NCBI GenBank assembly: GCA_022826905.1
Contig: JAJDUA010000039.1
Coordinates: forward strand, 1-32,656
DNA from: Candidatus Dadabacteria bacterium
GTDB lineage: Bacteria; Desulfobacterota_D; UBA1144; Nemesobacterales; Nemesobacteraceae
Direction: 5' to 3'
DNA length: 32,656 bases
The number at the start of each line of letters is the position of its first letter. Position 1 is the first letter of the stretch. This document shows positions 1,054 to 26,568 of the stretch, one piece after another. Below the pieces are notes generated by a model. It saw only the letters and a list, made by a program, of their open reading frames with translations, was not told the DNA's origin and ran no database searches. The translations under genes and the position numbers were made by a program.

Positions 1054-1521
1054 GTGCCCATGAACGTTAGAAGAGTGCTGCTCGTTTTAGTTGTTTTCCT
1101 TCTTGTTGCTCCCCCGGCTTGGAGTAACGGGGAAATCTCCGTTAAGGACCCGTGGGTAAGGCAAAATCCCCCCGGGACTTCCGTAACCGCGGCCTACATG
1201 GTTATCGAGAATCTCTCTTCGGCGGGAGACGAACTTGTGGAGGCGGGCTGCAGCTGCTCCGCTTCGGCCTCGATTCACGTTACAGAGATGAGGGAAGATT
1301 CAATGGCAATGAAGAAGGTCGCTTCCATTGAGGTTCCGGCGGGCACGTCGGTTGCCCTCTCGCCGGGAGGCTATCACTTGATGCTCGAAGGCCTCTCGGG
1401 CGACATAAAAGAAAGCGTGATTCTGGAGTTAAAGTTCCGCTCGGGCGCGCGGATATCGGTTACGGCGCCTGTCCTTGATCCCCCGGAGGCAAGCCGCCGA
1501 AGCCACCACCACCATCACTAG
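1054..1521 (+). CDS. PCuAC-family periplasmic copper chaperone
   Basis: The 155-aa protein has a signal peptide (cleavage near PAWSNG) and a DUF461/PCuAC fold. It binds Cu(I) in the periplasm and works with SCO1 in oxidase metallation. The family copper ligands are visible as HVTEM and, further on, the GGYHLM pair. Two oddities are an extra CSCS cysteine cluster before the first histidine and a C-terminal tail ending in five consecutive histidines, which may be an additional metal site. The GTG at 1054 abuts the SCO1 stop; an ATG at 1060 is an alternative that gives a protein two residues shorter. The 3' end overlaps the convergent bactofilin gene by 4 nt. Confidence 0.9.
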   Translation: MPMNVRRVLLVLVVFLLVAPPAWSNGEISVKDPWVRQNPPGTSVTAAYMVIENLSSAGDELVEAGCSCSASASIHVTEMREDSMAMKKVASIEVPAGTSVALSPGGYHLMLEGLSGDIKESVILELKFRSGARISVTAPVLDPPEASRRSHHHHH

Positions 1522-1934
1522 GGTTTAGTGACTTGTGAGGGGCCGGGAACCTGGCCTTTATCCTTTGGGCTTTTCTGTGGGGGGCTTTTCATTTCGCACT
1601 TCGCCCTCATGATTCCTCCGGCCTCGGTTATCAGGGTCTCGATCAGGACTTCTCCGGTTATTTCCCCCGTGCTTTTGATCTCGAGCGCCTCGGCATCTAT
1701 CTTTCCGGTTACTTTCCCGAATATGATGACCTCTCTGGCGTTTATGTCCCCGGTCACCGAACCGTTAGGACCCACCACGATTGAGCTGGTGACTTTTATG
1801 TCTCCCTTGAGCTCGCCTTCAACCTTCATCGATCCCTCGCACGAGATGATTCCCTCGAACACCACGCCTTCGCCCAGAACCGTTTCCACGGCACCCGGGT
1901 TACCGCTTTTGTTCTTCTGCTTGCTGTTGTACAT
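1518..1934 (-). CDS. Bactofilin (DUF583) cytoskeletal protein
   Basis: This 138-aa protein is built almost entirely of the right-handed beta-helix repeat typical of bactofilins (VFEGIISCEGSMKVEGELKG, then further turns with I/V at regular spacing). The termini are short, disordered and lysine/proline rich. Bactofilins polymerise without nucleotide into membrane-associated filaments that localise cell-wall enzymes. It follows the LytM-peptidase gene by 12 nt on the same strand, a pairing common in Gram-negative bacteria and consistent with a shape or wall-remodelling module. There is no sign of truncation. Confidence 0.93.
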   Translation of the reverse strand: MYNSKQKNKSGNPGAVETVLGEGVVFEGIISCEGSMKVEGELKGDIKVTSSIVVGPNGSVTGDINAREVIIFGKVTGKIDAEALEIKSTGEITGEVLIETLITEAGGIMRAKCEMKSPPQKSPKDKGQVPGPSQVTKP

Positions 1935-1946
1935 GCGGGGTTTCCC

Positions 1947-2789
1947 TTATCTTACGTATTTTTCAGGGTTGATCCTTCTTCCGTGCCTTATTATCTCGTA
2001 GTGAAGATGCGGCCCGGTCGAGCGGCCTGTTGATCCTACTTCCCCTATCTTCTCTCCCGCTACGACCTTCTGGCCCTTGGTGACGCTTATCTTGGAGAGA
2101 TGTCCGTAGAGAGTCTTGTAACCTTTTTTGTGCCTGATAATAACGTGCTTTCCGTAGCCCTTATCGTACTTGGCCTTCTCAACCACCCCGTCCGCCGTTG
2201 CCGCGGCCGCGTCTCCTATCTTTCCCCTGAAATCTATTCCGCCGTGGAACTCCCTGGCCTCCGAGAAGGGAGATTTCCTGTAGCCGTAGCGCGAGGAGAT
2301 TCCTCCCCGGGTGGGCTTTCCGAGAGGAATGAAGTCCAGGACCTTGGCGAGGCGGTCTATGTCCTTCTCCACCGCGTCAAAGTAATCGTGACCGATATCG
2401 CTTGTCCGGAAGCCGCTCCCTCCCGCGGGGAGAGTTCTTCTCCGCTTTTTCTCAGAGAGCGTCCTCTCCATGGAGGCAAGTTTTTTCTCGAGACGAAGGA
2501 CCCTTTTTATGAACCTGTCCTCAAGTTTCTTGTCCCCGATTATGTCATGCGACATCGCCTCGACGGCGCTCAGCAGTTCGTCTATCTCGGCCTGCTTCTG
2601 CGCCCGGATATCCTGCGCGTCCCCGTAGAACTTGTATGAGAGAAAGAAGGAGAGAAGCGCGCCCAGCACGAAAACCCCAAGGGCGCCCAGCAGCAGCTGA
2701 AACCGTTCCCTGCCTATGCCCCAGGACCTGGTCCAGCCGAACTTGTTACAGCATACTATGAATGATAACCCGTCGTTTCTTTTCTCCAC
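1947..2789 (-). CDS. Membrane-anchored M23 (LytM-type) peptidase
   Basis: The 280-aa protein has a cytoplasmic N-tail, one membrane helix (about 31-52), a coiled-coil stretch (about 60-115) and a C-terminal M23 domain (about 163-268). The zinc ligands are present: H182 and D186 in HGGIDFRG, and H263 in HLHYE. An active peptidase cleaving peptidoglycan cross-links in the periplasm is therefore expected, not a degenerate activator. The GTG at 2789 follows a purine-rich GAAGG. The gene heads an operon with bactofilin, driven by the promoter at 2843-2870. Confidence 0.9.
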   Translation of the reverse strand: MEKRNDGLSFIVCCNKFGWTRSWGIGRERFQLLLGALGVFVLGALLSFFLSYKFYGDAQDIRAQKQAEIDELLSAVEAMSHDIIGDKKLEDRFIKRVLRLEKKLASMERTLSEKKRRRTLPAGGSGFRTSDIGHDYFDAVEKDIDRLAKVLDFIPLGKPTRGGISSRYGYRKSPFSEAREFHGGIDFRGKIGDAAAATADGVVEKAKYDKGYGKHVIIRHKKGYKTLYGHLSKISVTKGQKVVAGEKIGEVGSTGRSTGPHLHYEIIRHGRRINPEKYVR

Positions 2790-2842
2790 CCTTCACCCCG
2801 CTGCCGCCCGGTAGCGGCTCAATATAACGTGAATGCTAAGTA

Positions 2843-2870
2843 AGAATAATTGATAAAAGCCCCTTGTCAA
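2843..2870 (-). promoter_or_regulatory. Promoter of the peptidase-bactofilin operon
   Basis: On the minus strand a perfect TTGACA (complement of 2865-2870) is followed after 16 bp by TATTCT (complement of 2843-2848). The leader of about 50 nt contains a GCCGC/GCGGC hairpin just before the GTG start at 2789. Confidence 0.6.
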
Positions 2871-2911
2871 AGAAATAGCAAGTGATCGCAGCACCTTGTA
2901 GCGGGGAACTT

Positions 2912-3733
2912 TCACTTGCCCGAATAGCCCGAGATCCTCCCGAGCTGCTCGAGGCTCCTTACCCCCTCGTGGAACTCTCCGCCGATTTCCCAGGTAGGGT
3001 AGCTTTTTATGTTCTTGGCCGCGCAGAGGTCGGGGTCGGGGTCGGGACCGCTTCGGCTGCACTCTACGTAGGTTATGTAGCCGAAGGCCCCCCCGAAAAG
3101 CTCCTTCTGCTTCTCGCAGTGAACGCAGGTGTATGAGCCGTACATGGTCGCTCCGCGCTCCGAGAGGTATTTCGCAAGGCTTACCTGGTAGAAGGTGGCC
3201 GCGGACGGCGGGTCCTCCTGCGGGGCGGGGGAATGAATGGAGTAAGACGCGGCAAACACCAGGACAAACAGGGCCGCCGCTACGCCGAAAGACCTTATGA
3301 CGCCGCCGGTTGTTTGAGAGGCCGCCAGCAGAAACAGTGCTACCGCGATTGCGGCCGAGGCGACGCACCATGAGCAAAACGCCTCTATTATGAAAAGTTC
3401 GAGGTAGGTCAGGTAGGCTGAAAAACCGACGGCCGCAGCCGACAGCCAGAAAAGAAGGTTCCACCTTGTCCGCCGCCCAAGGCGCGAGACGGAAACGGCA
3501 GCCATGGCCGCATATCCCAAAACTCCGAGCAGCGAGACCGGAATGCCTCCGATGCTCGAGTACCGGCTCTCCCTCACCATGTCGCAGCCCTTGCCCGTGA
3601 GGCAGAGCTCCGTGCCCCCGAGCACGAAATCAGCCACAAGCAGGTATCCCGATACGAGCGTTCCAAGCGCGCAGAGAACGAATGCCGCTCCCGCATGATT
3701 GCCGAGAAAGCTCTTTTTCCGTCTCATAGTCAT
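2912..3733 (-). CDS. VKOR-thioredoxin fusion (disulfide-bond formation)
   Basis: This 273-aa protein joins a vitamin K epoxide reductase domain (four to five helices, about 12-165) to a periplasmic thioredoxin-like domain (about 180-270). VKOR features are the loop cysteines C44 and C50 and the CSWC redox pair (120-123). The thioredoxin motif is CVHC (203-206), with a cis-proline segment SYPTWEI. Such fusions replace DsbB plus DsbA: quinone oxidises the VKOR cysteines, which oxidise the thioredoxin domain, which oxidises exported proteins. The gene stands alone. A TATAAT lies 10 nt before the ATG at 3733; a second ATG is at 3727. Confidence 0.92.
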   Translation of the reverse strand: MTMRRKKSFLGNHAGAAFVLCALGTLVSGYLLVADFVLGGTELCLTGKGCDMVRESRYSSIGGIPVSLLGVLGYAAMAAVSVSRLGRRTRWNLLFWLSAAAVGFSAYLTYLELFIIEAFCSWCVASAAIAVALFLLAASQTTGGVIRSFGVAAALFVLVFAASYSIHSPAPQEDPPSAATFYQVSLAKYLSERGATMYGSYTCVHCEKQKELFGGAFGYITYVECSRSGPDPDPDLCAAKNIKSYPTWEIGGEFHEGVRSLEQLGRISGYSGK

Positions 3734-3743
3734 CCCGACCGGT

Positions 3744-3749
3744 ATTATA
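3744..3749 (-). promoter_or_regulatory. -10 element close to the VKOR start codon
   Basis: The complement of 3744-3749 is a perfect TATAAT exactly 10 nt upstream of the ATG at 3733. The -35 (TTCTAA, complement of 3767-3772) is weak. If used, the transcript would be nearly leaderless. Confidence 0.4.
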
Positions 3750-3904
3750 CAGATTATCCGCGGGTTTTAGAAACCTCCTTCCCCGCAACTTTAAGGCCGT
3801 GTTAACGGTTTTTAAAAGGGGAATTAAAAAACGCAAAACCTTCGGTTTACCCCTTGTTTTTTGCGCTCCATGCGGTTTTTATTTTATACAGGGTTTCTGG
3901 AAAG

Positions 3905-4531
3905 ATGATCAACAACGACAACATAGCTCAAAAGGTAACGTTTCCGCGCCCCGCCGAGGGCGGCAGGACCACGGGCGCGGCGAACTTCGTCTCCACCGTT
4001 TTCTCACCCCCGCTTGTGGTTTTCTACGCGGTGATTCTCTGCTCCTACTCGATCGACCACTCCTCCAAGTTCCTCTGGACCTCTTTTTTCGTGCTCCTCT
4101 TCGTGCTCGCCCCGACGGCCTATATCTTCTATCTCATGGGCCAGGGCAAGGTTACGGATTTCCACATGAGCGTGAGGGAGGAGCGTATAAGGCCCCTCAG
4201 CATTGTTTTCATCTACTCGGTATTCTCGCTTCTTATCTACGGTTTCGTCGGCGGCCCGGGCGCCCTTGTAACCTTCGGCTATTCGTGCCTGGCGCTTACG
4301 GGCCTCTGGATACTGGTGTCGCTTTACTGGAAGATAAGCGGTCACTGCGCCGCCATGGGCGCGCTCGGGGCTATGGTGTTTGCTCATCCGCACGAAACCT
4401 TGGTCTTCGTTATCCCTGTCCTTGCCCTGCTGGTCGCTTGGTCGAGGGTGAGGCTCGGATGCCACAGCCCGGCTCAGACCCTGGTCGGACTGGTTCTCGG
4501 GGTCGCGGTCTTCTGGCTTTTCCTTTCCTGA
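3905..4531 (+). CDS. PAP2-superfamily membrane phosphatase-like protein
   Basis: The 208-aa protein has about five membrane helices and recognisable PAP2 signatures: REERIRP (motif 1), SGHCAAMG (motif 2) and SRVRLGCHSPAQ (motif 3). The catalytic histidines of motifs 2 and 3 are present. The final aspartate usual in motif 3 is replaced by glutamine and motif 1 has arginine in place of lysine, so activity is plausible but not certain. The substrate is probably a lipid or isoprenoid phosphate in the membrane. The ATG at 3905 is preferred over an upstream TTG because it begins at a family-like soluble N-terminus; the upstream GGAAAG lies very close to it. The gene is convergent with the next one. 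Confidence 0.75.
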   Translation: MINNDNIAQKVTFPRPAEGGRTTGAANFVSTVFSPPLVVFYAVILCSYSIDHSSKFLWTSFFVLLFVLAPTAYIFYLMGQGKVTDFHMSVREERIRPLSIVFIYSVFSLLIYGFVGGPGALVTFGYSCLALTGLWILVSLYWKISGHCAAMGALGAMVFAHPHETLVFVIPVLALLVAWSRVRLGCHSPAQTLVGLVLGVAVFWLFLS

Positions 4532-11453: not shown

Positions 11454-12692
11454 TTACGACCGGTTCCAGACCGTTCCGAAAGGAACGGCCCACAGCCCGT
11501 CACCCATGGAACCCGCGAGTTCTCCCGAATAGAGTACGATCCCGGTGAATTTTCTGTCGCGCGCGATGTTTTTCTTAAACCAGCTGAGGCTCCTGAAATC
11601 GCTCGTTCCGATGGCCGAGCCCGCCTTGATCTCAATCCCGAGTAGCGCCGAGTCCTCCCTTTCGATCAGGAAGTCAATCTCGCGCTTTTCGCGGTCACGG
11701 TAATGAAACAGGCTGTATTTTCCGGCATTGGCGTCCGCCTGGGCGGCTATTTCGTTGAACATGAAGGTTTCAATCAGTTTGCCCGAGCGGTCCGCGTCCA
11801 TGCGAACCTGCTGCCTGTCGCAGTCGAGAATCGAAGACATAAGTCCCGAATCGGTCATAAACAGCTTGGGGCGGCTCCCCACCCGCGCGTAGTCCGTGCG
11901 TTTCCACGGCCTTATGCGCTCGACCACATACAGGGTTTCCAAGGCGTTTATATATGTCTCGACCGTGGAGCGGACGATGGAAAGTCCGGCGGCTATGGAT
12001 GAGATGTCCATGAATTTGCCCGACCATGCTGCCAGGGCATATATCAGTTCGCTCATGGCATCGCGTCGCTGGATACGCCCGAGATCCCTCAGGTCGCGCT
12101 CAAGAATCGCGTCCACATAGTCCCGATGCCATAGTCTTCGTTCTGCGTCTCCAAGCAGAATAGCTTCCGGGAAGCCGCCCCCAAAAGAGATGTCCAGCAT
12201 GGCGTCACGACCGTAAGCGCGGTCGGGATGCCCGAAGTCCTGTCCGAAAGCCCGGTCAAGGAAATCTGGAACCACCCCCAAAATCTCTCCCTGCGTGAGC
12301 GGACGCAGCCGTACCTTTCTTATACGTCCGGCGAGAGATTCCCGCACCCCTGGGGAAGACTGTATGTCGGCCGAACCTGTCAGCAGGTATTGTCCGGGCC
12401 TTGTATCTTCATCTACATTTATCTTGATCGCGGAAAGCAGATCGGGGGCACGCTGGACTTCGTCGATGATGAGGGCTTTTCCCGAGTGCCTAACGAAACC
12501 TCGGGGGTCGGTTTCGGCAATCTGCCGTACGGCCGGATCATCTAAAGTGCGGTAGGCGACATCATGTGAAACCAGTTCCTTGGCAAGAGTAGTCTTGCCG
12601 CATTGCCGCGCTCCGCAGAGCAACAGCACGCGGCGCGTTTCGAGAGCTTTTTCCAAAGTGTTCCGCTGCCAGCGGACATAAGAACGTGACAT
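11454..12692 (-). CDS. AAA_14/DUF4143 ATP-binding protein
   Basis: The 412-aa protein has a RecA-like AAA domain with Walker A GARQCGKTT (27-35) and Walker B LIIDE (74-78), a winged-helix middle, and a C-terminal DUF4143 domain with a nuclease-fold-like IEIKAG strand. This large family is scattered in bacteria and archaea, often as stand-alone genes in mobile regions; its cellular role is poorly defined. The ATG at 12692 has AGGAT just upstream. The gene is preceded by three phased repeats (12726-12788) and lies directly behind traG, on the same strand but with its own regulatory region. Confidence 0.85.
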   Translation of the reverse strand: MSRSYVRWQRNTLEKALETRRVLLLCGARQCGKTTLAKELVSHDVAYRTLDDPAVRQIAETDPRGFVRHSGKALIIDEVQRAPDLLSAIKINVDEDTRPGQYLLTGSADIQSSPGVRESLAGRIRKVRLRPLTQGEILGVVPDFLDRAFGQDFGHPDRAYGRDAMLDISFGGGFPEAILLGDAERRLWHRDYVDAILERDLRDLGRIQRRDAMSELIYALAAWSGKFMDISSIAAGLSIVRSTVETYINALETLYVVERIRPWKRTDYARVGSRPKLFMTDSGLMSSILDCDRQQVRMDADRSGKLIETFMFNEIAAQADANAGKYSLFHYRDREKREIDFLIEREDSALLGIEIKAGSAIGTSDFRSLSWFKKNIARDRKFTGIVLYSGELAGSMGDGLWAVPFGTVWNRS

Positions 12693-17221: not shown

Positions 17222-18018
17222 TTCCCCTCCCCTCCGAGCGTGAAAAGTTCTTTGTCTTTCTCCTGTCCCTCTCCGAGCACTTCCTCTCCCACCGCGTGGA
17301 GCCTCCGCCTTATTTCGCCCAGAGTAAGGTAGCCCGTGCCTATCCGGACGATCTTTCTCTGCGAGGGAACGAAAAGGAAAAGCGCCGGCACCCGCCGGAC
17401 GCCCAGGCGCGCGGCCTGCGCCGCGCCGTTTACGAAATGCGGGTAGAGAGGGTGAAGTCCCGTTCCGTCAAGGGATGCCGCCAGGACTCCGATCCCGTGT
17501 CTCCTCTCAAGGGTTTTTATGATCTCCGCCTGCCCGCGGCAAAACGGGCAGTCCGAGCGGAAAAAGAAAACGAGCTTTCCGACCCGGGATATTTTCTCGA
17601 TAACGCCCTCGCGGACGGTTTTCCGAAGGTTCCTCGATATCTCGGCGCCCGCCGCGCTTACGGGATTGTCGACCGTTGAGTCAAGCGCCGGGCTCTCCCA
17701 AAGGACCCGTTTCCAGACGCGCGCGAACTCCTCGCTTCGCTCAAGCACCCGCTTCTGGTGCTCCATGTACGTCCTCACGTTCTCCTTTGTCGGGGAGAGA
17801 AGGGCGGCCTCAAAAAGCCTCTCTCCCCTTTCCCTTATCTCCTTTACGGTTAAGCGCCTGCCTCCCCGGCTCTCGTGTCGCGTTTCCTCTTCTTGTCTCG
17901 GGAGAGGTTCATACCAGAACCAGCCCCGCTCCTTCTGGTCGAAGTAGGGCTCCGAAAGTGCCGTGTGCGCTGTCGAGAAAAGGAAAAACGCGGTGAAAAG
18001 GATCTTTCTTCGGGACAT
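17218..18018 (-). CDS. traF: F-type conjugation protein TraF (thioredoxin-fold)
   Basis: The protein of about 266 aa has a signal peptide (about 1-22), the family hallmark GWFWYE (32-37), a helical middle and a thioredoxin-like domain from about 145. It keeps a CPFC redox motif (157-160), unlike F-plasmid TraF, which has lost it, so it may act as an oxidoreductase as well as in pilus assembly and could cover the role of TrbB. The ATG at 18018 is chosen over a TTG at 18039 because the promoter motif at 18028-18056 ends just before it. No Shine-Dalgarno is visible. It heads the second tra segment. Confidence 0.9.
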   Translation of the reverse strand: MSRRKILFTAFFLFSTAHTALSEPYFDQKERGWFWYEPLPRQEEETRHESRGGRRLTVKEIRERGERLFEAALLSPTKENVRTYMEHQKRVLERSEEFARVWKRVLWESPALDSTVDNPVSAAGAEISRNLRKTVREGVIEKISRVGKLVFFFRSDCPFCRGQAEIIKTLERRHGIGVLAASLDGTGLHPLYPHFVNGAAQAARLGVRRVPALFLFVPSQRKIVRIGTGYLTLGEIRRRLHAVGEEVLGEGQEKDKELFTLGGEGK

Positions 18019-18027
18019 AACAGAGAT

Positions 18028-18056
18028 AATGTAATACAAAACCGTTAGAAAGGCAA
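18028..18056 (-). promoter_or_regulatory. Promoter in front of traF, matching that of traU
   Basis: On the minus strand TTGCCT (complement of 18051-18056), 17 bp, TACATT (complement of 18028-18033), then 9 nt to the ATG at 18018. The segment TTTTGTATTACATT is almost the same as that before traU. Transcripts would be essentially leaderless. Confidence 0.6.
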
Positions 18057-18301
18057 AGAAGGCCCGGTCAGCCTGCCGTCGCCGAGTTTCTTCCTGCTGA
18101 CAGAACGCATTTTGCGGAACTGGGGGAATTTACATTTATTCCGCAACTGCGGGTTTTCCGGGGGCAAAAAATATGGTCAGGAGCAGGTTAAGCGGCACAC
18201 TTTTCATATTGTCCGCTTCTATGATCGCCCGTTGTTTTAACCATGCGTGTGGGTTCAGTCTTGAGTGACGCTGAAAAAGCTATCGACGGGCGAGTTTAAG
18301 A
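18057..18301. other. Left border of the defence insertion
   Basis: There is no gene here. The region holds a perfect 8-bp inverted repeat, TTGCGGAA (18112-18119) and TTCCGCAA (18139-18146), a possible stem-loop without a T-tract. Somewhere here the GC-rich tra sequence gives way to the AT-richer island. Confidence 0.4.
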
Positions 18302-18748
18302 TTAGCTGGACTTCCCTTGTGTTTTTTCTGGCTCTTCGGTTTTCTTCGTAACTCTTTCTATCAGTTCCAGCAGGTCATCCGAAACGCCGGAGTGAACCGA
18401 GCCTCTGCCATGTCTCCGCAAAGCGCCGATTATGGCCGCATAGTAAACTTCTCCCCCTAGATCAATGCTGACTGAAATCACTTTTTCAGGGGACCGGTAC
18501 CATTCAAGAGTGATTGCTCCGTCAGGTTCGGCAGCTATTTGCGGCGGCTCAATGCCGGGGGGAAAGGATTGAAGGAAGGTTACGGAGCTTTGCAACACCT
18601 CTTTTGAGAGCGCCTTCGCTCTGTCGCCATCCCATCCGTCAGACGAGCATTCATCGAGGGTTTTTTCCAGTTCCCGGAAAACGTGTTTGTCCATGAGACT
18701 GTGCGTGTTGTTTTCGGTGTCTTGAGATTTTTCCGTAAGTTCGCGCAA
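18302..18748 (-). CDS. Hypothetical protein, EPDG-ITLEW type
   Basis: The 148-aa soluble protein is of unknown function. The pattern SSDGWDGDRAKALSKEVL followed by IAAEPDGAITLEWYRSPEK and short beta strands suggests a small alpha/beta domain found in many genomes as an uncharacterised gene. The TTG at 18748 has GGAAGGA about 11 nt upstream; an ATG at 18694 lacks a ribosome-binding site. It is divergent from the ATPase gene at 18914 with 165 bp between them, so the two may share a control region. The C-terminus is charged and probably disordered. Confidence 0.6.
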   Translation of the reverse strand: MRELTEKSQDTENNTHSLMDKHVFRELEKTLDECSSDGWDGDRAKALSKEVLQSSVTFLQSFPPGIEPPQIAAEPDGAITLEWYRSPEKVISVSIDLGGEVYYAAIIGALRRHGRGSVHSGVSDDLLELIERVTKKTEEPEKTQGKSS

Positions 18749-18913
18749 AAAGATATACTTCCTTCCAGAGTGTTTCTTACAAGCATGATAACGTATTCTC
18801 GTTTTTCTGCCCCTTTCTGTATTCTTCGTTGTATAATTATTATCGCCCTTTTAACTGAAGGCGATACTTGGTAATGGCATTTGGTTTGTGTAGATAGCTT
18901 TGGAGACAAGACC

Positions 18914-20098
18914 ATGGATGATTTATTAAAGGATCTTCGTTTTGAGATCAGGAATCTCGGCATTATCCGAGGTGGGGAATTCACTCAGAAACCACTGACC
19001 ATTTTCTGTGGTCCGAACAACAGCGGCAAAACATGGACCATGTACTCCCTCTACTATTTTCATATCTTGTTGTCTAAGTTCGCGGACCCTGAGAGGCGTA
19101 GAGAGAACCGAAATCCAAGGACGATTGTCAGTCTGGAAAAATTTAACGAGCATATGTCTGCCAACCTCCCCGATTTGTTTAACACATCTTCAGGAAAACT
19201 GGGCAATGCGACATTTCAGATTAAAGCCGACAATAACTGGCAACAGATTGTTGAAAAAGCTGTCGGCGCGCCGCATGTTTTTCTTATGCCCGCCGAACGC
19301 AGCGGGCTGCATCTTTTTTTTCGCGAACTTAGTACGCGACGGACTGCATTGCTGCATCACGCTTCCAAGGAAAAAATCAATATCACAGAGTTGCTGCGCG
19401 ACGTTATACATTCGCGTTATGCTCTTCCCATAGCCCATTATATCAACTGGCTGAATGATATGCCAGAGAGGCAAAAATTAAAGCCGGGGGGCCTTCACGA
19501 TTATGCAGAACTACTTAAAAGGAAACTGGTTGGAGGTGCCTACAGGGTTGATTCTCGCAGTGGTACCGTTGAGTTTAAGCCCTATCAGCCAAAACGTAAC
19601 GGGATAAAAACAAATTTTATGGGTTTGCATATGACTTCCAGCATGGTTAAAAGCCTTTTCGGACTCTGGTTTTATCTGGAAAACCAGGCAACCCGGGGCA
19701 GTGTTCTGATGATTGATGAACCGGAATTGAATATCCACCCTGTTAACCAGAGGGAAATAGCCAGGCTTCTTGCAAGACTCGTAAATGCCGGACTCAATAT
19801 CGTCATCAGTACGCACAGCGATTACATAGTGCGAGAATTCAATTCGTTGATCATGCTCAGTCGGGATAAAGACCAAAAGCTACAAAAAAGACATAAGTAC
19901 AATCAGGAAGAAATTCTCAGGCCCGAACAGGTAGGGGCTTATCTTTACAGTGACCAGGAAATTACTTCTTTTGAGATAACCCCGGAAGATGGAATTTACG
20001 CGACGACTTTTGATGAGGTGATCAGTGATATAAATACGACTAACGATGATATTTATTACAGTCTGCAGGAGCAAGGCGATATCCAGGGCGATGATTGA
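18914..20098 (+). CDS. ABC-type AAA ATPase of a two-gene candidate defence system
   Basis: This 394-aa protein of the AAA_15/AAA_21 (OLD-like, SMC-related) group has Walker A GPNNSGKT (33-40), a MPAERSGL segment (125-132), a signature-like SSMVKSL (242-248), Walker B VLMIDEPELNIHP (264-276) and the switch histidine in STHSDYI (299-305). Such ATPases act as sensors or regulators of a partner nuclease or RNase in Septu-, Gabija- and PARIS-like systems. The ATG at 18914 has GGAG 8 nt upstream. Its stop overlaps the start of the nuclease-like gene by 8 nt, so the two are co-translated. Confidence 0.85.
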   Translation: MDDLLKDLRFEIRNLGIIRGGEFTQKPLTIFCGPNNSGKTWTMYSLYYFHILLSKFADPERRRENRNPRTIVSLEKFNEHMSANLPDLFNTSSGKLGNATFQIKADNNWQQIVEKAVGAPHVFLMPAERSGLHLFFRELSTRRTALLHHASKEKINITELLRDVIHSRYALPIAHYINWLNDMPERQKLKPGGLHDYAELLKRKLVGGAYRVDSRSGTVEFKPYQPKRNGIKTNFMGLHMTSSMVKSLFGLWFYLENQATRGSVLMIDEPELNIHPVNQREIARLLARLVNAGLNIVISTHSDYIVREFNSLIMLSRDKDQKLQKRHKYNQEEILRPEQVGAYLYSDQEITSFEITPEDGIYATTFDEVISDINTTNDDIYYSLQEQGDIQGDD

Positions 20099-20612
20099 CG
20101 CAATAGAGAAAACTATCAATCAACACTACCACTTGCCAAGAGAAGGTCGCGACTGGTTTCTCTCCGACGACGTGAAGTTGCGCACTCCCGGCAGAAATTC
20201 TCTGGGTTTTTCGCTTGATGACGAGCGGAAGCCGCCATTTGTCTTTTTCGGAGGCAGCCCTCCTGCTCACATGGCAAAAATGTGCGACGCGATTGTTGCT
20301 CTTTCTTTTGAGCGGCGAATTTATCTGTTCATTATCGAGCAAAAAACGTCAAGCCCCGGTGATTACAAAAAGCAGACTGCAAACGGCAAATACTTCTGCG
20401 AGTGGCTGTTCTCCCTTTACAAAGAACATGGACACTGCTCTGCTGACCCGGTTTACATAGGACTGCTTGTTCGGAAGCCGCGTGCGGTTCCACGCAAGGG
20501 CGAGACTTCGCACAGCAACCCTGTGCGCAGAACGCATCATCGGTTTGAACATTTTTTCGAAGAGAAAAACACCCGGAACATTTACCTGCAGAAATTCATT
20601 CGGAGTTTGTGA
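20091..20612 (+). CDS. Putative PD-(D/E)xK nuclease, partner of the ATPase
   Basis: The 173-aa protein is of no family I can name. The segment CDAIVALSFERRIYLFIIEQK reads as a restriction-endonuclease-like core: D66, a beta hairpin, then E83-x-K85, with Q95 in the following helix (DYKKQ). The rest is short and basic, with a HHRFEHFF patch. I infer that it is the effector of the upstream ATPase because the genes overlap (ATGATTGA). The frame is open further upstream to 20046, but the ATG at 20091 gives the coupled start. Other possibilities are a DNA-binding or regulatory subunit. Confidence 0.6.
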   Translation: MIDAIEKTINQHYHLPREGRDWFLSDDVKLRTPGRNSLGFSLDDERKPPFVFFGGSPPAHMAKMCDAIVALSFERRIYLFIIEQKTSSPGDYKKQTANGKYFCEWLFSLYKEHGHCSADPVYIGLLVRKPRAVPRKGETSHSNPVRRTHHRFEHFFEEKNTRNIYLQKFIRSL

Positions 20613-20721
20613 GATTTATCCGCCGGGAGAGTTCTTCCTGAAATCAGCATATTTCATAGGGCGGGGGGAAAGATCACGGGCGCTGTGAAAAAACCGGCCT
20701 TGCCATTCTTGGAGGTTCTGA

Positions 20722-21221
20722 GTGATACGTGTCGACGTCAATCCTGAACTGCTGCGCTGGGCGCGTTTGCGTGCGCACATGGATGCTGACGCGCTGTTTC
20801 AAAAGTTTCCTAAGTACTGTGAGTGGGAGAGCGGGAAAGCTCAGCCGACATTCGGCGATTTCAGACAGTCATCCGGCTTCCGTCTCCCCACATGAGATTG
20901 AGGCTTGGTGCAACAAGGTTGCAGCTGAACTTCTTGTTCCACTTGCCGTACTGCGCAGGGAATACCGGAGAAACGAAGACCTCTCCCACGCCGTCGCTCG
21001 TTTGGGGCGCCGATTCAAGGTAAGCGGCCTTGTTATCCTCAGACGCATCCATGATGCCGGAGAGCTTTCGGCGAAGCAGTTCCGGGAAGCTTATGACGAC
21101 GAGCTTCTGAGCTTTGGGAACATCAAGAAAAGCAAAGGAGGAGATTTCGTTCCGACTGCTTGGATTCCGAAAAATAAAAACCTTTAACGAGATGGCGAAA
21201 AAGCTTGGAGTTTCTTTCTGA
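20722..21221 (+). pseudogene. Decayed ImmA/IrrE-type metallopeptidase with Xre HTH
   Basis: A GTG at 20722 with GGAGG upstream starts the typical N-terminus (VDVNPELLRWARLRA, then FPKYCEWESGKAQPTF) but stops at 20895. From about 20880 another frame encodes the C-terminal part (EIEAWCNKVAAELLVPLAVL to KGGDFVPTAWIP, stop 21187). A third piece, KTFNEMAKKLGVSF, ends at 21221. About 100 codons between the first two pieces, including the HExxH zinc site, are missing, as is a stretch before the last piece. In the intact family this protein is the antitoxin of a DUF4411 toxin, whose remains follow. Confidence 0.85.
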
Positions 21222-21226
21222 CCTCA

Positions 21227-21367
21227 CACCACCTCGACGCCGACCTGTTCATCCGGGCGAAAAACCTGCACTGCGGGTTTGGCCTCTGCCCGGCTTTCCG
21301 GGACTGGCTGATTGCAGCGGATGCCGCCGAAGAGAACGTGCTTCTCTTCCTATCTGAGATAAGATAG
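21227..21367 (+). pseudogene. Remnant of a DUF4411 (PIN-like) toxin
   Basis: The frame HHLDADLFIRAKNLHCGFGLCPAFRDWL..., ending at TAG 21365-21367, matches the start of DUF4411 proteins (LDANVFIQAKNLHYGFDFCPAFWDWL type), including the first acidic PIN-like residue. The start codon is lost and everything after about 45 residues is gone. It lies just behind the broken ImmA/IrrE-type gene, the standard order for this toxin-antitoxin pair, so the whole module is dead. Confidence 0.8.
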
Positions 21368-21467
21368 GCAGTTTAAAGAGATTTTTTCTCTTTCAAGCTG
21401 GTTTTTATGATTATTTTGTGTATATTAATGGTGTTTAATGAGTTGATATCATATAAGGAGACATCAA
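21368..21467 (+). promoter_or_regulatory. Upstream region of the rloA-type gene
   Basis: The region contains an AAAGAGA/TCTCTTT stem with a T loop (about 21375-21394), an AT-rich stretch with a TATATT (-10-like, about 21420-21425), and AAGGAGA 6-8 nt before the ATG. No convincing -35 can be given. Confidence 0.35.
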
Positions 21468-22790
21468 ATGATTATAAGCTTTTCAATAGAGAACTGGATG
21501 TCTTTCCGTGATTCCGTTTCTTTCTCAATGGTTGCCAGCCGGGAAAGACAACACGGAAGCCGGATTCCCAAGCTCGAAAAATACCAGATGAGGGTTTTGC
21601 CCGTGGCGGCGATCTATGGCGCTAACGCGTCGGGCAAAACGAATTTTTTCAGGGCTCTCATTTTTGTCCGAAATCTGGTTCTTCAGGGAACGGATCCTGA
21701 CAAGTTGATTCCCGTGGAACCGCATCGACTTGCCAATGGATACATGGAAAAGCCCTCCCGCTTCAGGATGGAACTGCTGATTGATGAAACGATCTATGAA
21801 TTCAGCTTCGCCGCGACCAGAAGGGCCATCGTCGAGGAGAAGCTTGTTCAGATTACCAGCGCAAGCGAGAAGACTCTCTATAACCGTCAGGGGAACGAAC
21901 CGAATCTTCACAGTTCGCTTAGCAGAAAAAAGTTTCTCCTTTTTGCTTTTCAGGGCACGAGGGACAACCAGTTGTTTCTCACGAACTCCGTATCTCAGAA
22001 GGTTGAAGACTTCAAGCCGGTTTATGACTGGTTCAAAGACTTCCTACAACTGGTTACTCCGTATTCGGTATACCAAAGATTTGAATATCTCCTTGATGAA
22101 AAGCATCCGATGAGTGACGCAACCAATAAAATGCTCTCTGATCTCGACACGGGCATTTCTCACCTAGGTTTTGAAGAAGTGCCCTTTGAAAGCATTCCTT
22201 TCTCAGAAAATTTAAAAAACGATCTGTACGAAAAAGTTGAAGAAGGCAAACATCTTGGATGGTTTTTGGGTAACGAACGTTTTGTTTTTACACGGACGGG
22301 CGGAGAAATTGTGGCAAAAAAGCTTGTCGCTTTTCATGCCAGACCTGACGGAACGGATGCGAAATTTGATCTTTATCAGGAATCAGAAGGCTCTCAAAGG
22401 GCAATTGACCTGCTGCCTTCCTTTCTGGGTGCACCTCCTCTCGGTCTGAATAGGGTATATGTCATTGACGAACTAGACCGTAGCCTGCACCCACTGCTTA
22501 CAAGGAAACTGATTGAAACTTACTTGGCCAGTTGCAATGCGCAGAGCCGTGCGCAGATGCTGTTCACCACACACGATGTTTCCCTCATGGATCAGCAGCT
22601 GTTTCGCCGTGATGAAATGTGGGCCACCGAGAAAAACTCCGAGGGAAATTGCGACCTTTTTTCCTTCAGCGACTACAAGGATATTCGCTATGACAAGGAT
22701 ATTCGCAAAAGCTACCTTCAGGGCCGTTTAGGCGGCGTTCCTCGGTTCTTTTTAAGCGGTGCCGAGATTAGTCGTGAGGATAGCGAATAA
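21468..22790 (+). CDS. RloA/AbiLi-like AAA ATPase
   Basis: This 440-aa ABC-type ATPase has the AAA_15 N-terminus (SFSIENWMSFRDSVSFSM), Walker A YGANASGKTN (50-59), an ABC-like signature ESEGSQRAIDLLP, Walker B VYVIDELDRSLHP, the switch TTHDVSLMD, and the closing motif DKDIRKSYLQGRLGGVP typical of RloA-type proteins. These act with RloB/AbiLii partners in abortive-infection-like defence. A strong AAGGAGA precedes the ATG. The stop and the start of the next gene share one base (TAATG), so translation is coupled. All motifs are intact. Confidence 0.9.
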   Translation: MIISFSIENWMSFRDSVSFSMVASRERQHGSRIPKLEKYQMRVLPVAAIYGANASGKTNFFRALIFVRNLVLQGTDPDKLIPVEPHRLANGYMEKPSRFRMELLIDETIYEFSFAATRRAIVEEKLVQITSASEKTLYNRQGNEPNLHSSLSRKKFLLFAFQGTRDNQLFLTNSVSQKVEDFKPVYDWFKDFLQLVTPYSVYQRFEYLLDEKHPMSDATNKMLSDLDTGISHLGFEEVPFESIPFSENLKNDLYEKVEEGKHLGWFLGNERFVFTRTGGEIVAKKLVAFHARPDGTDAKFDLYQESEGSQRAIDLLPSFLGAPPLGLNRVYVIDELDRSLHPLLTRKLIETYLASCNAQSRAQMLFTTHDVSLMDQQLFRRDEMWATEKNSEGNCDLFSFSDYKDIRYDKDIRKSYLQGRLGGVPRFFLSGAEISREDSE

Positions 22791-23410
22791 TGTCTCTCAG
22801 AAAACGGAGAAGATTTGTACGTCCGCAAGGCGAACGCCGTTACAGGAAAATGTTTGTGCTCGCTACGGAAGGCAGCAAAACGGAGTCGCAGTATTTTTCG
22901 ATTTTCAACGACAAGGACCTGACCGTTCATATCAAGTTTCTCAGAGGAAGGGACAGAAGTGCACCTGCGCAAGTGCTTAAAAGAATGAGGGACTATTTGA
23001 AGGAATTCAATCTTACAAGCTCGGACGAGGCCTGGCTTGTCGTGGATAAGGATCAATGGACAGATGAGCAGCTTCTGCAGCTTTACGAGTGGGCGAAAGA
23101 GGATGACAGTTACGGTTTTGCTTTGAGTAATCCCAAATTTGAACTCTGGCTGCTTCTGCACTTTGAAGATGGAAAAGGTGTCAGCAGTTCTCAGGTCTGC
23201 TCCGAGAGGCTGAAACGTTATATGCCTGATTATGACAAGGACATTAACAAAAGAAAGATATCCAGAACCATGATTGAAAAAGCTGTAAAGCGAGCAAAAG
23301 AACTGGATGCGCCAGCTTGCTCCGATTGGCCACGTAGTGCCGGGACGACTGTTTACAAATTGATTGAGAACATACTGAATGTGAATACGGCGGAGAAAAA
23401 GGGAAAATAA
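22790..23410 (+). CDS. RloB/AbiLii-like protein
   Basis: The 206-aa RloB-family protein has a Toprim-like layout: a basic N-terminus, VLATEGSKTESQYF (about 23-36) with the catalytic-type glutamate, VVDKDQW (about 84-90) with the DxD-like pair, and FALSNPKFELWLLLHF, the most conserved RloB block. It is the likely nuclease effector of the preceding ATPase; AbiL of lactococci has this two-gene composition. Its end is 36 bp from the convergent end of the methylase operon, so the two systems are packed back to back. Confidence 0.88.
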   Translation: MSLRKRRRFVRPQGERRYRKMFVLATEGSKTESQYFSIFNDKDLTVHIKFLRGRDRSAPAQVLKRMRDYLKEFNLTSSDEAWLVVDKDQWTDEQLLQLYEWAKEDDSYGFALSNPKFELWLLLHFEDGKGVSSSQVCSERLKRYMPDYDKDINKRKISRTMIEKAVKRAKELDAPACSDWPRSAGTTVYKLIENILNVNTAEKKGK

Positions 23411-23446
23411 ATCCGGACAAGGTGCAAATTCAGCTTCGAAGTGAGT

Positions 23447-24388
23447 TCATCTAGGCTTGCTGAAAGATGCATTTACCGTTTTTTTGGCCTCTAACATCCA
23501 GGTGCGGATATTGGACAGAATTTGTTCAGGCAAGCCGATGCAGTTTTCTACCAAGCGACATCGGTCAAAAACTATTCCGGCGTCAATATTGGTGTTTTTC
23601 CAATCGGACCTGTCCAGTGCTTCCGAAATGCAGAATATTCTCGTCGGGATGACAAGAAACGGCTCATGCATCCATTTGCTGACGAATTCTCCCGGTTGCA
23701 ACTGGGAAGTATCCTCCTTCCAATTCGTTCCTGTTTTGCATTGACCGAAGAAAACAATTTGGCCCGGCCTCCGGTCCGCAAACGGAATCCATGCTACGAC
23801 GTCAAGCATATCATCTTTCTTTTTGACGGTTTTTTTATCCAGGCTTCGAAACCCTGAACCTTCACCCAGCATACTGCAAAGTTTGTTGATTTTATTCTTG
23901 AAATTGCCTTCGTTAGATGTTCCGAAAACGAAGCATTGTGCCTTGTCCGGCCCGAGGTATGTCTTCAATGCGTGAGCGGACAGGCCTTCCAACAGATTCG
24001 TACCGTCAATTCCCACATATTTTCTGTTCTTTTTCATATTGAGGCGGGTGCTTAGCAGCAGATACAAGTAGACGATTGATTGCGTTTCTTCGGGTTCCTC
24101 TACCGGGCATCGCAGCACTGTTCCCTGTAGTTTGAAAGTAAACGGATAGCCGGAGGAGCATGCGCTTTCTCTGCGCTCGATTTCATTCATCACTTCATCA
24201 AGCAGCTCGGCGTTTTCATCGTCGCTATCCTCGCAACCTACATCGCTGTCGTTATCGTCAATGCGTCCCAGATACGCAGCTATTTCCCTGACAGAAGTGC
24301 TTGTATTGGCCCAGCACAGCAGTTCTGCGAAATCCGCCAGTTCAGTGATGTCCGCGTCTTGAGACGGCCAGTTGGGCAACTTGAACAG
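23447..24388 (-). CDS. Nuclease-like protein of the Dam-ParB operon (QxK core)
   Basis: The protein of about 310-313 aa has an acidic N-terminal half and a C-terminal segment that reads as a PD-(D/E)xK variant: DDMLDVVAWIPF (aspartate about residue 193), then IVFFGQCKTGTNW with QxK (213-215), as in Mrr-type enzymes. I infer a restriction-like or modification-dependent nuclease. The start is unusual: no ATG or GTG fits. CTG at 24388 has GGAGG at the ideal 8-nt distance, and TTG at 24379 is the fallback. It lies in the same frame as the ParB gene, separated only by a TAA and at most two codons. It is third in the operon. Confidence 0.65.
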   Translation of the reverse strand: MFKLPNWPSQDADITELADFAELLCWANTSTSVREIAAYLGRIDDNDSDVGCEDSDDENAELLDEVMNEIERRESACSSGYPFTFKLQGTVLRCPVEEPEETQSIVYLYLLLSTRLNMKKNRKYVGIDGTNLLEGLSAHALKTYLGPDKAQCFVFGTSNEGNFKNKINKLCSMLGEGSGFRSLDKKTVKKKDDMLDVVAWIPFADRRPGQIVFFGQCKTGTNWKEDTSQLQPGEFVSKWMHEPFLVIPTRIFCISEALDRSDWKNTNIDAGIVFDRCRLVENCIGLPEQILSNIRTWMLEAKKTVNASFSKPR

Positions 24389-24391
24389 GGT

Positions 24392-25510
24392 TTAATCCTC
24401 CGCAGTGCGAGCTTTATTCTTGGATGGATTTCTCCTGCGATTCCTTTTGCGTTCCATTTCAGAGTGTATATCCTCAGCCATTTCAACAACTGTTTCGGCG
24501 ATGAGCAACAGGTCTCTGGACCCGTCATAACCTGTTGTCAGATAAGCCCGGGCGTTCTGAAGTTCGCGTTTTGAATTCAGGAGTGCTTCTTCGAAGACAT
24601 CGGTTGGAAAACGACTTAACTCAAAAGCCACCGCCAGTTCTTTACCGGCTCTAAGCGCGGCAAGAGATTCCCTGTTTTTCAGAACCTGATTAAGTTGCCT
24701 GAGATGAGGATTCTGGGTTTCTACAACGGGTGGCTTGTTCTCTTTTTTGTCTCCGTAAAGCCAGACGCAAAGCTCACCAAGCTTTTTTATGGTTTTGCTA
24801 GGCACGGGTGTTCTGGTCTCGGCGTCTGCGGATCTCAAGGACAGAAAATTGCTGATCCCGTCGTAGTCAAGACCGGTATAGAGGTGAGAAAAGGCAAATC
24901 TCTGGCGGAACCTGTTCTCCCTGTCATAGACTCCTTTTTTCTCCGCCTGTTCTATGACCATCAGCCCACGGTAAAGACGTTGCACTGTTTTGTGGCGGTC
25001 GCCGATCTGTTCCGCGATGTCTTCAAGCGATATCCGATATTTTCTGTGGATGTCGGCGATATATTTGGCCTTCGCGTAACTGCTCCACTTGGCGGGCCCG
25101 TTTACATGCTTGAATCCTATGTAGCGCCAGAATTTTTCGCGGGTGGAAGTTTTTACCGGAAGGGTCTCAAGTTCTTTGAGTTTCGCTTTTTTAAGGGTTG
25201 GAACATCCCAGCCTTTTTCCTTGGTGAGTTCGGGGTCAAGGAGCGCCTTTACGGCCGCAAGCCGCCGGTTTCCTTCAATGACGACCTTTCTGCCACCTTC
25301 CTCAGCGACTATCAGGGGTTCGTGCTCAAAATACCCGCTGGCGGCGATGGACTGTACCAACTCCTTAATATCCATTGCATCCCACAGGAGGGAGATGACT
25401 TCATCGTCCTTTGCCGTTTTAGAGATTCCGTATTCTGCGAGCCGGGGGTTTTCCCTGTCGAAGTGAAGAGAAGAGGTCTCCAGCCAGTTGATATCTTTCG
25501 TTTCTGCCAT
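24392..25510 (-). CDS. ParB N-domain protein associated with the Dam methylase
   Basis: The 372-aa protein has a ParB/Srx-like N-terminal domain (FEHEPLIVAEEG and VIEGNRRLAAVKAL, about 61-90), an HTH-like segment (ISLEDIAEQIGDRHKTVQRLYRG), and a helical, charged C-terminus. Chromosome-partition ParB proteins are CTPases; stand-alone versions beside methylases and nucleases are probably DNA-binding specificity or nuclease subunits. The ATG at 25510 has AGGAAAG in the 13-bp gap after the methylase stop; the frame open to 25585 overlaps that gene and is not used. It is the middle gene of the triad. Confidence 0.8.
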   Translation of the reverse strand: MAETKDINWLETSSLHFDRENPRLAEYGISKTAKDDEVISLLWDAMDIKELVQSIAASGYFEHEPLIVAEEGGRKVVIEGNRRLAAVKALLDPELTKEKGWDVPTLKKAKLKELETLPVKTSTREKFWRYIGFKHVNGPAKWSSYAKAKYIADIHRKYRISLEDIAEQIGDRHKTVQRLYRGLMVIEQAEKKGVYDRENRFRQRFAFSHLYTGLDYDGISNFLSLRSADAETRTPVPSKTIKKLGELCVWLYGDKKENKPPVVETQNPHLRQLNQVLKNRESLAALRAGKELAVAFELSRFPTDVFEEALLNSKRELQNARAYLTTGYDGSRDLLLIAETVVEMAEDIHSEMERKRNRRRNPSKNKARTAED

Positions 25511-25523
25511 AGGTTCTTTCCTG

Positions 25524-26420
25524 TCAGGCGATTTTTCGCAAAATGTTCTCGTTTCGTCCCATGCGGCATGCTGGTGGAATGTCAATGTTGTCGGGCGCGA
25601 TTATCAATTCCCCCGCACAGTGTTTTACCTGTAAACTATACCGGATCGGCAACATGGCCATTTTGCATTCACCGTAAAGTTCCCGTATCAGATCGCTGTC
25701 ATCATAGGACATGATCCAGGGCAGTTTTTTCTGAGCACTTACGTACTTCGCCAATACGCGGTGGTCTTTCGGTTCATACGCGTTCAGGTAAAGTCGTCGG
25801 CCGTTGTTTACGTAGGGTGGATCCATATATACAAATACCCGGCCTCTTCCCAGTCCCTTGGGAAGGTGGTGCCTGAGGAAGTCAACGGCATCCCTATTAA
25901 ACACCTCTATGCGCTCGCGATGTCTTCCGAGCGACAACAGGCGTTTTGCGAGGTTCTTCCGGTTAAAACGGGCATCCATTCTCCACGCGCCTTTTTGTCC
26001 GTGGCCCCCGATCGGGCCGGCACCCGTCAATATCCCGGACCTGTTGCAGCGGTTCATGTAGAAAGTCGCAAAGCCCAGAGCGAAGAAGTCGTGGTCCCCA
26101 GGATGGGCGCAGACTTCTCTTTGGTTTTTCCACTCCCCGATTGTAAGAGGTACTTCTTCCACACGCTGCGCAAAAAGTTCTGAGTACTCAAGGGCAGCGC
26201 GCCAAAATGCGTAAATCCGGGGATCCGCGTCGTTCAGCCGAATCTTGGAAACAACCCCGGCATTGAGCAATGCCAATGCAGCTCCCGCACCTCCCGCATA
26301 GGGTTCGAAGAACGTGCATCCCCGCAGGTCATTGAGGTCAATGACATCGGCCAGGAACCCGGAAAGAATCGCTTTTCCTCCAGGGTAACGGAGTGGGCTG
26401 AAATGTTTTATCGTACACAT
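25524..26420 (-). CDS. D12-class (Dam-type) adenine-N6 DNA methyltransferase
   Basis: The 298-aa enzyme has the D12 layout: LRYPGGKAIL at the N-terminus, SAM-binding FFEPYAGGAGAAL (37-49), the NDADPRIYAFW segment, and catalytic DPPY (200-203). It would methylate adenine in a short site; the site is unknown and the target-recognition part is not alike enough to Dam for me to say GATC. It is the first gene of the operon and has its own promoter. GGAAAAGG/GGAAGG abuts the ATG, an unusually tight ribosome-binding site. All catalytic motifs are intact. Confidence 0.9.
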   Translation of the reverse strand: MCTIKHFSPLRYPGGKAILSGFLADVIDLNDLRGCTFFEPYAGGAGAALALLNAGVVSKIRLNDADPRIYAFWRAALEYSELFAQRVEEVPLTIGEWKNQREVCAHPGDHDFFALGFATFYMNRCNRSGILTGAGPIGGHGQKGAWRMDARFNRKNLAKRLLSLGRHRERIEVFNRDAVDFLRHHLPKGLGRGRVFVYMDPPYVNNGRRLYLNAYEPKDHRVLAKYVSAQKKLPWIMSYDDSDLIRELYGECKMAMLPIRYSLQVKHCAGELIIAPDNIDIPPACRMGRNENILRKIA

Positions 26421-26568
26421 CCTTCCTTTTCCTTATATATTGAAGTATGCACTCTAGCATTTACATGGTCAACTTTGGATTATCGTATCGAATTACCGCG
26501 GAACTATCTCTTTTACCTGAGTTTTCTGCCTTTTTGCTCTAGAAGCGACGGCACTCTTTCGACCCCTC
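26421..26568 (-). promoter_or_regulatory. Promoter region of the methylase operon; right border of the island
   Basis: On the minus strand TTGACC (complement of 26467-26472) and CATACT (complement of 26444-26449) are 17 bp apart, about 24 nt before the methylase ATG. The remainder up to 26568 is non-coding, AT-rich sequence between the island and the traN stop. Confidence 0.5.

Follow-up and report, generated by a model that had tools for sequence, protein, structure and literature searches.

A methylase-ParB-nuclease module in a conjugation operon of Candidatus Dadabacteria: a probable restriction-modification-like system with a ParB-nuclease restriction cassette

What is the role of a three-gene cluster that encodes a DNA methylase, a ParB-like protein and a putative nuclease, and that lies inside a conjugation operon? 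The cluster was noticed in a stretch of 32,656 nucleotides of Candidatus Dadabacteria DNA (contig JAJDUA010000039.1; hereafter, the window), belonging to a genome of 1.78 Mb in 69 contigs. An earlier note, made from the letters of the window alone, had described a D12 methylase, a ParB-domain protein and a nuclease-like protein encoded side by side in an operon with its own promoter, and had proposed a restriction-modification-like system in which a ParB-type switch replaces the usual specificity subunit. An ORF check of the window confirmed the three genes, which are all intact and lie on the minus strand, the methylase gene first, that of ParB second and that of the nuclease last. The features are the following.

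25524..26420, minus strand: D12 (alpha-type) N6-adenine DNA methyltransferase of 298 aa with intact catalytic motifs; start codon ATG, with RBS-like AAGGAAGG
24392..25510, minus strand: ParB-like protein of 372 aa (counted from ATG 25510), made of a ParB/Srx domain with the invariant EGNRR, a helix-turn-helix and a helical C-terminal region, in this order
23447..24379, minus strand: protein of the nuclease family, 310 aa, for which a winged helix (about 11-90) and a PD-(D/E)XK domain with D189, D193, Q213 and K215 are predicted
26444..26472, minus strand: TTGACC-17-CATACT, a possible promoter of sigma-70-like type upstream of the methylase gene, not above chance
17994..26566, no strand assigned: defence island that interrupts an F-type T4SS operon between its traF and traN genes, holding the module together with PD-T4-4-like and AbiL/RloB-like genes

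The start of the ParB gene should be placed at ATG 25510 rather than at the listed TTG 25585, since residues 1-25 are disordered in the AF2 model and the homologues begin at this ATG. The overlap with the methylase gene therefore disappears, and the gaps within the cluster are 13 and 12 bp. The nuclease gene starts at TTG 24379 or possibly at CTG 24388; the only good Shine-Dalgarno sequence (GGAGGA) sits too far 5' of the TTG, and the in-frame CTG is better spaced. The promoter was not established: the site at 26472-26444 scores 9/12, and the scan gave 4 sites as compared to 2.8 ± 1.8 in shuffles. The stop codon of traN is 148 bp upstream of the methylase gene, a distance that makes read-through from traN possible.

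The surroundings of the cluster are an F-type conjugation operon, in which TraN, TraF, TraH and TraG were recognised by profile and which, from the gene order and our own reading, presumably also contains TraU- and TrbC-like genes. In three relatives of the genus, whose TraN proteins are 80-85% identical, traN and traF overlap by 4 bp; in the window about 8.6 kb separate the two genes. Homology to these uninterrupted relatives ends at 26567 and restarts at 17993, and the GC content of the inserted DNA is 44-53%, as compared to 58-64% for the tra genes. Because this segment is inserted between traN and traF, has a lower GC content and carries further defence-like genes, 17994-26566 is evidently an acquired defence island. 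In a search of 58 genomes of the host phylum, no relative of ParB or of the nuclease was found in the 57 other than the window's own, and therefore the module has probably been imported into this phylum only recently. A search for repeats or an integrase at the island borders gave no convincing pair.

Other genes of the region were also recorded. In the same island, positions 18881-20098 and 20046-20612 encode a PD-T4-4_A-like AAA ATPase (PADLOC profile, 1.9e-96) and an overlapping second ORF, respectively, and positions 21468-22790 and 22790-23410 an AbiL-like pair, convergent with the module, made of an AAA_21 ATPase (AbiLi, 5.6e-81) and RloB (PF13707, 1.5e-36). Overlapping short ORFs at 20722-21187 match Peptidase_M78/IrrE weakly and are possibly what is left of a frameshifted gene. 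At 17994-18039 the TraF N-terminus seems to have been rebuilt by the insertion, its first ~20 residues being unlike those of the relatives in which traF and traN overlap. An AAA_14/DUF4143 ATPase (PADLOC PDC-S01, 1.9e-136) is encoded at 11454-12692, adjoining the end of TraG, and two relatives (L183 and L184) have ORFs of a similar kind at the same place.

Is the third protein a nuclease? It gave no Pfam, PADLOC or NCBIfam match, and matched only phage families of unknown function. Its AF2 model (pLDDT 94.0) has a winged-helix-like part at the N-terminus and, after it, a PD-(D/E)XK-like domain. Among solved structures, Foldseek ranked MspJI first (E 5.9e-3, prob 0.99), with EcoT38I next by probability, and the match is modest, with a TM of 0.30. 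An alignment of 93 homologues shows D189 and D193 in every member and Q213 in 88; the QxK core reported earlier, which is QCK at residues 213-215, belongs to this family-wide signature. The active-site lysine occupies position 215 in 43 homologues and position 223 in 48; 2 homologues have a lysine at both positions, and 0 lack it at both. The lysine-215 form reads QCK, as in the window, and the lysine-223 form reads QC[AG]..GxxWxxK. A lysine that moves between two places yet is never lost is known behaviour in PD-(D/E)XK enzymes. Since here too it migrates and is never absent, the alignment provides strong evidence that the family is catalytically active.

The third protein is predicted to be a PD-(D/E)XK nuclease, with the D ... 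(D/E/Q)xK core and the migrating lysine in its sequence and the alpha/beta core in the AF2 and Foldseek results, and no profile appeared that would assign it to a non-nuclease family, which the earlier note would have taken as a refutation. With Mrr/MspJI-type nucleases it shares the D-x(n)-QxK core and, in MspJI, the nearest solved fold; the arrangement of a winged helix and a nuclease domain is also known in Mrr. It differs from them in its family-specific migrating lysine and in escaping detection by Mrr_cat or any other Pfam profile. In fact, a Pfam scan of the 93 homologues gave no consistent family, the best single E value being that of Mrr_cat, seen once at 0.058, and the nuclease profile gave only chance matches against the PDB.

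The ParB-like protein matches phrog_3694 over its full length (9.2e-79). Its AF2 model (pLDDT 90.7) resembles CTP/CDP-bound ParB, KorB and Noc in Foldseek (E about 1e-6, prob 1.00), helix-turn-helix included, so that the N-domain and helix-turn-helix fold of ParB partition proteins is present. However, the score against NCBIfam parB_part (TIGR00180) is 25.9 bits, below the family cut-off of 58.45. In 68 aligned sequences, the invariant residues are E104-G-N-R-R-L109, H160, W167, K172 and G195. The P-motif-1-like GNRR shared with the CTP-switch DNA clamps ParB, Noc and KorB is therefore invariant. The canonical P-motif 2 of ParB is ENxxR, which is not conserved here but replaced by a KH, or invariant-histidine, motif; for this reason, the use of CTP by the module ParB is uncertain. 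A further difference from ParB, Noc and KorB loci is that no partition genes were noticed nearby.

The neighbourhood of these genes was then analyzed in other genomes. With ParB as the sole query, we took the 80 best loci out of at least 547 in GTDB genomes and the 80 best out of 131 in IMG/VR, and nuclease and methylase profiles were iterated within this set. The 171 sources, nearly all obtained in this way, include the window and earlier loci; since the choice was made by similarity to the window's ParB, distant branches are under-sampled. Among the matches listed, an ORF of the nuclease family follows ParB on the same strand in 163 of the 171 loci. Removal of near-copies left 122 non-redundant ParB-nuclease pairs, from at least 18 phyla plus phages, and the junction between the two genes measures from -130 to +15 bp in 119 of the 122 listed. 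A methylase is found within 400 bp in 112/122 pairs among the matches listed and belongs to the D12 (65), C5 (27) or PF01555 (SPPY; 20) family, and no recognisable methylase was seen near 4 of these 122. Methylase density is 0.40 per kb of flank, as compared to 0.014 per kb farther out. This fixed neighbourhood excludes a random gene order, which would have spoken against the earlier proposal; judging from these loci, the methylase-ParB-nuclease module recurs in at least 18 bacterial phyla and in many phages. A phage contig from human faeces (L005, 3614-8453) carries two convergent ParB-nuclease pairs, whose nuclease genes lie on the inside; a C5 methylase and a large Z1-like ORF are found close by.

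Three unrelated methylase families fill the slot beside the ParB-nuclease pair. On the ParB tree, which comes from a quick search and has several long branches, the methylase class changes 8 times, as compared to 41.9 in shuffles, and at least 6 changes are forced by supported branches; the methylase has apparently been replaced several times, yet it is clade-stable. The pairwise identities of ParB and nuclease correlate with Spearman coefficients of 0.93 and 0.78 in D12 and C5 loci, respectively. The corresponding values for methylase and ParB are 0.63 and 0.20, and the two track each other well only in the upstream-D12 group (0.85), which includes the window. In P2-like prophages of E. coli, methylases that are 97.8% identical adjoin ParB and nuclease proteins that are 32% and 24% identical, respectively. 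Because the identities co-vary and because of these prophages, ParB and nuclease form one cassette that evolves as a unit, and the methylase is another that is exchanged. The prophage pairing is compatible with restriction halves that have a single site in common, and equally with a restriction half that depends on its site only loosely. The copies concerned are L189 and L190 (both 1402-4438) as compared to L004 (228-3266), where the 97.8% identical C5 methylase lies at the same P2 prophage site and the cassette is exchanged.

The C5 version is present at ≥99% identity in 103 of 5,426 complete E. coli genomes, including the lab strain W, where it sits in the Wphi prophage as gp98, gp96 and mth (NC_017664, 4335184-4338222). 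The kinship of this methylase with M.HaeIII predicts that it methylates GGCC. An IS5-type element was found in three E. coli prophage copies among those listed (L186-L188), always in the nuclease gene and with ParB and methylase intact, a small count, as one insertion site may be common to two of them. The direction of these insertions is the one predicted by addiction to the methylase.

We propose, with a probability of about 0.72, that the module is a restriction-modification-like defence with a ParB-nuclease restriction cassette, which most likely marks the DNA of its host cell and destroys invading DNA that is unmarked. The methylase would mark, and so protect, a short sequence in the resident DNA, and ParB and nuclease, probably in a physical complex, would jointly represent the restriction half. 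ParB would touch DNA via its helix-turn-helix, and its pocket (EGNRR) would bind a nucleotide and serve as a switch, probably as a DNA clamp, although to the clamp step in particular we give somewhat less than an even chance. ParB would recruit or license the winged-helix PD-(D/E)XK nuclease, which would cut DNA that does not carry the mark. This reading also draws support from the location in a defence island and from the resemblance of two of the parts to PD-λ-5, a system tested as anti-phage (PMC9519451).

As in Type II restriction-modification, a methylase gene adjoins that of a predicted PD-(D/E)XK nuclease (in the 112 of 122 listed non-redundant loci), and the methylase is conserved while the restriction side diverges; the restriction-enzyme fold and active site are predictions from the AF2 model, the Foldseek matches to MspJI and EcoT38I and the migrating lysine. 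What sets the module apart from Type II systems is a third, ParB-like component that is conserved and goes with the nuclease, and the fact that ParB is kept and co-diverges with the nuclease suggests a subunit beyond the Type II set. The restriction-modification-like part of the earlier proposal is thus well supported by the gene order and the predicted nuclease, but the replacement of the specificity subunit by ParB is doubtful. All three methylase classes are families that normally have their own recognition domains. For this reason, and because a 97.8% identical methylase occurs with divergent ParB and nuclease and the recognition-helix residues of the helix-turn-helix are common to D12 and PF01555 loci, ParB hardly fits as the specificity subunit of the methylase; its partner seems to be the nuclease and not the methylase. 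We also rejected the idea that the helix-turn-helix reads the methylase's mark, given these shared residues and one C5 locus of the same clade that keeps them. Some points weigh against restriction-modification itself: a strict shared-specificity model must explain how one methylase (97.8%) occurs with very different ParB-nuclease pairs, the nuclease has no relative that sequence searches detect in Pfam, the PDB or PADLOC and its fold match only a TM of 0.30, and 4/122 pairs are without a methylase.

How close is the module to PD-λ-5? The methylase, with motifs X (RYPGGK), I (FEPYAGGAG) and DPPY, matches PF02086 at 6.8e-13 in Pfam and PADLOC PD-Lambda-5_B at 1.5e-98, with residues 5-286 on positions 3-280 of the 291 of the profile, and is a full-length D12 methylase of the same subfamily as the B component. 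The first protein of PD-λ-5 opens with a homologous ParB-like domain (EGNRRLAA), and both systems are associated with phages and prophages. However, only residues 35-195 of our ParB match the PADLOC profile PD-Lambda-5_A (positions 14-176 of 473), whereas true PD-Lambda-5_A proteins, of about 430-600 aa, match it end to end (e.g., 4e-183 in L060). PD-λ-5 has two genes, and its A protein has another C-terminal part, no nuclease partner and no similarity to the nuclease profile; the module has a separate nuclease gene, kept in the 163/171 loci listed, and a methylase that across the family is D12, C5 or PF01555. Because the likeness of PD-λ-5_A is confined to the ParB N-domain and does not extend to the nuclease, the module is, by these comparisons, a relative and not a member of PD-λ-5. 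In agreement with the earlier note, no named ParB-nuclease-methylase system was found in the literature searched (mostly outside subscription journals and preprints), although two of the three parts match PD-λ-5 components. At three loci, a complete PD-λ-5_A gene neighbours the ParB-nuclease module: in L060 (1987-6536) a single D12 methylase lies between the two, and in L057 (3606-8041) and L058 (4513-8948) a full-length PD-λ-5_A adjoins the module.

PD-λ-5, whose anti-phage action was tested in a host from which the mrr region had been deleted, has been termed a compacted RM+Abi system (Vassallo et al., 2022; PMC9519451). The module might likewise combine restriction with abortive infection, as a three-gene relative of PD-λ-5 in which ParB and nuclease are a suicide effector, released when an invader blocks the methylase or its mark. 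The PD-Lambda-5_B match of the methylase, the homology of the ParB N-terminus to PD-Lambda-5_A and the presence of PD-λ-5_A, D12 methylase, ParB and nuclease together in L060, and of both systems in L057 and L058, are in line with this possibility. We consider it rather unlikely, as nothing in PD-λ-5_A corresponds to the nuclease, the C5 and PF01555 versions bear no relation to PD-λ-5_B, and the enzyme, being a predicted DNase, would suit direct restriction just as well.

ParB might also be a mere transcriptional regulator, similar to a controller protein, of a two-gene restriction-modification system. ParB and KorB proteins can be repressors, the family has a clear helix-turn-helix and its recognition residues are those common to D12 and PF01555 loci; but ParB diverges in step with the nuclease and not with the methylase, is a protein of some 370 aa with a conserved nucleotide pocket, and in convergent C5 loci lies upstream of the nuclease gene only, all of which makes this role improbable.

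Still less probable is a type IV-like, modification-dependent system, in which ParB and nuclease would attack foreign-modified DNA as GmrSD does and the methylase would have another role. The best fold match, MspJI, is a modification-dependent enzyme, and GmrS also has a ParB/Srx fold (PMC4619093), so that a nucleotide module of this fold coupled to a DNase is common to GmrSD/BrxU-like enzymes and to our module. The former, however, have an HNH nuclease, a DUF262 domain with DGQQR and no methylase, and the latter a PD-(D/E)XK nuclease, EGNRR and a methylase that adjoins in 112/122 listed pairs; no DUF262 or HNH/DUF1524 match was found with Pfam. Finally, a partition or stability module of a mobile element, with a third protein that is not a nuclease, would agree with the ParB fold and the location in a conjugation operon but is extremely unlikely, given that the nuclease signature is invariant, that a look without profiles noticed no partition ATPase gene adjoining the ParB-nuclease pairs, and that the tra operon is common within the genus whereas the module is absent from the relatives. 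These readings overlap with the restriction-modification one and are not exclusive, and the confidences do not sum to one.

If the module is a restriction-modification-like defence, a common phylum-wide defence module has been overlooked by current profile libraries; the nuclease is annotated as "hypothetical protein" even for 100% identical copies across E. coli genomes. ParB-fold switches would gain a restriction role, the relatedness of PD-λ-5 would be explained, and the prophages would offer a natural case of one methylase paired with very different restriction cassettes. More speculatively, and on balance unlikely, the module could represent a distinct class of restriction-modification, in which an exchangeable cassette, made of a nucleotide-switched ParB-type clamp and a nuclease of the PD-(D/E)XK type, can couple to methylases of different chemistry, the clamp scanning DNA in place of the ATP-driven motors of type I, type III and BREX systems. 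Since E. coli W carries the C5 version in its Wphi prophage, the function of the module is directly testable in E. coli.
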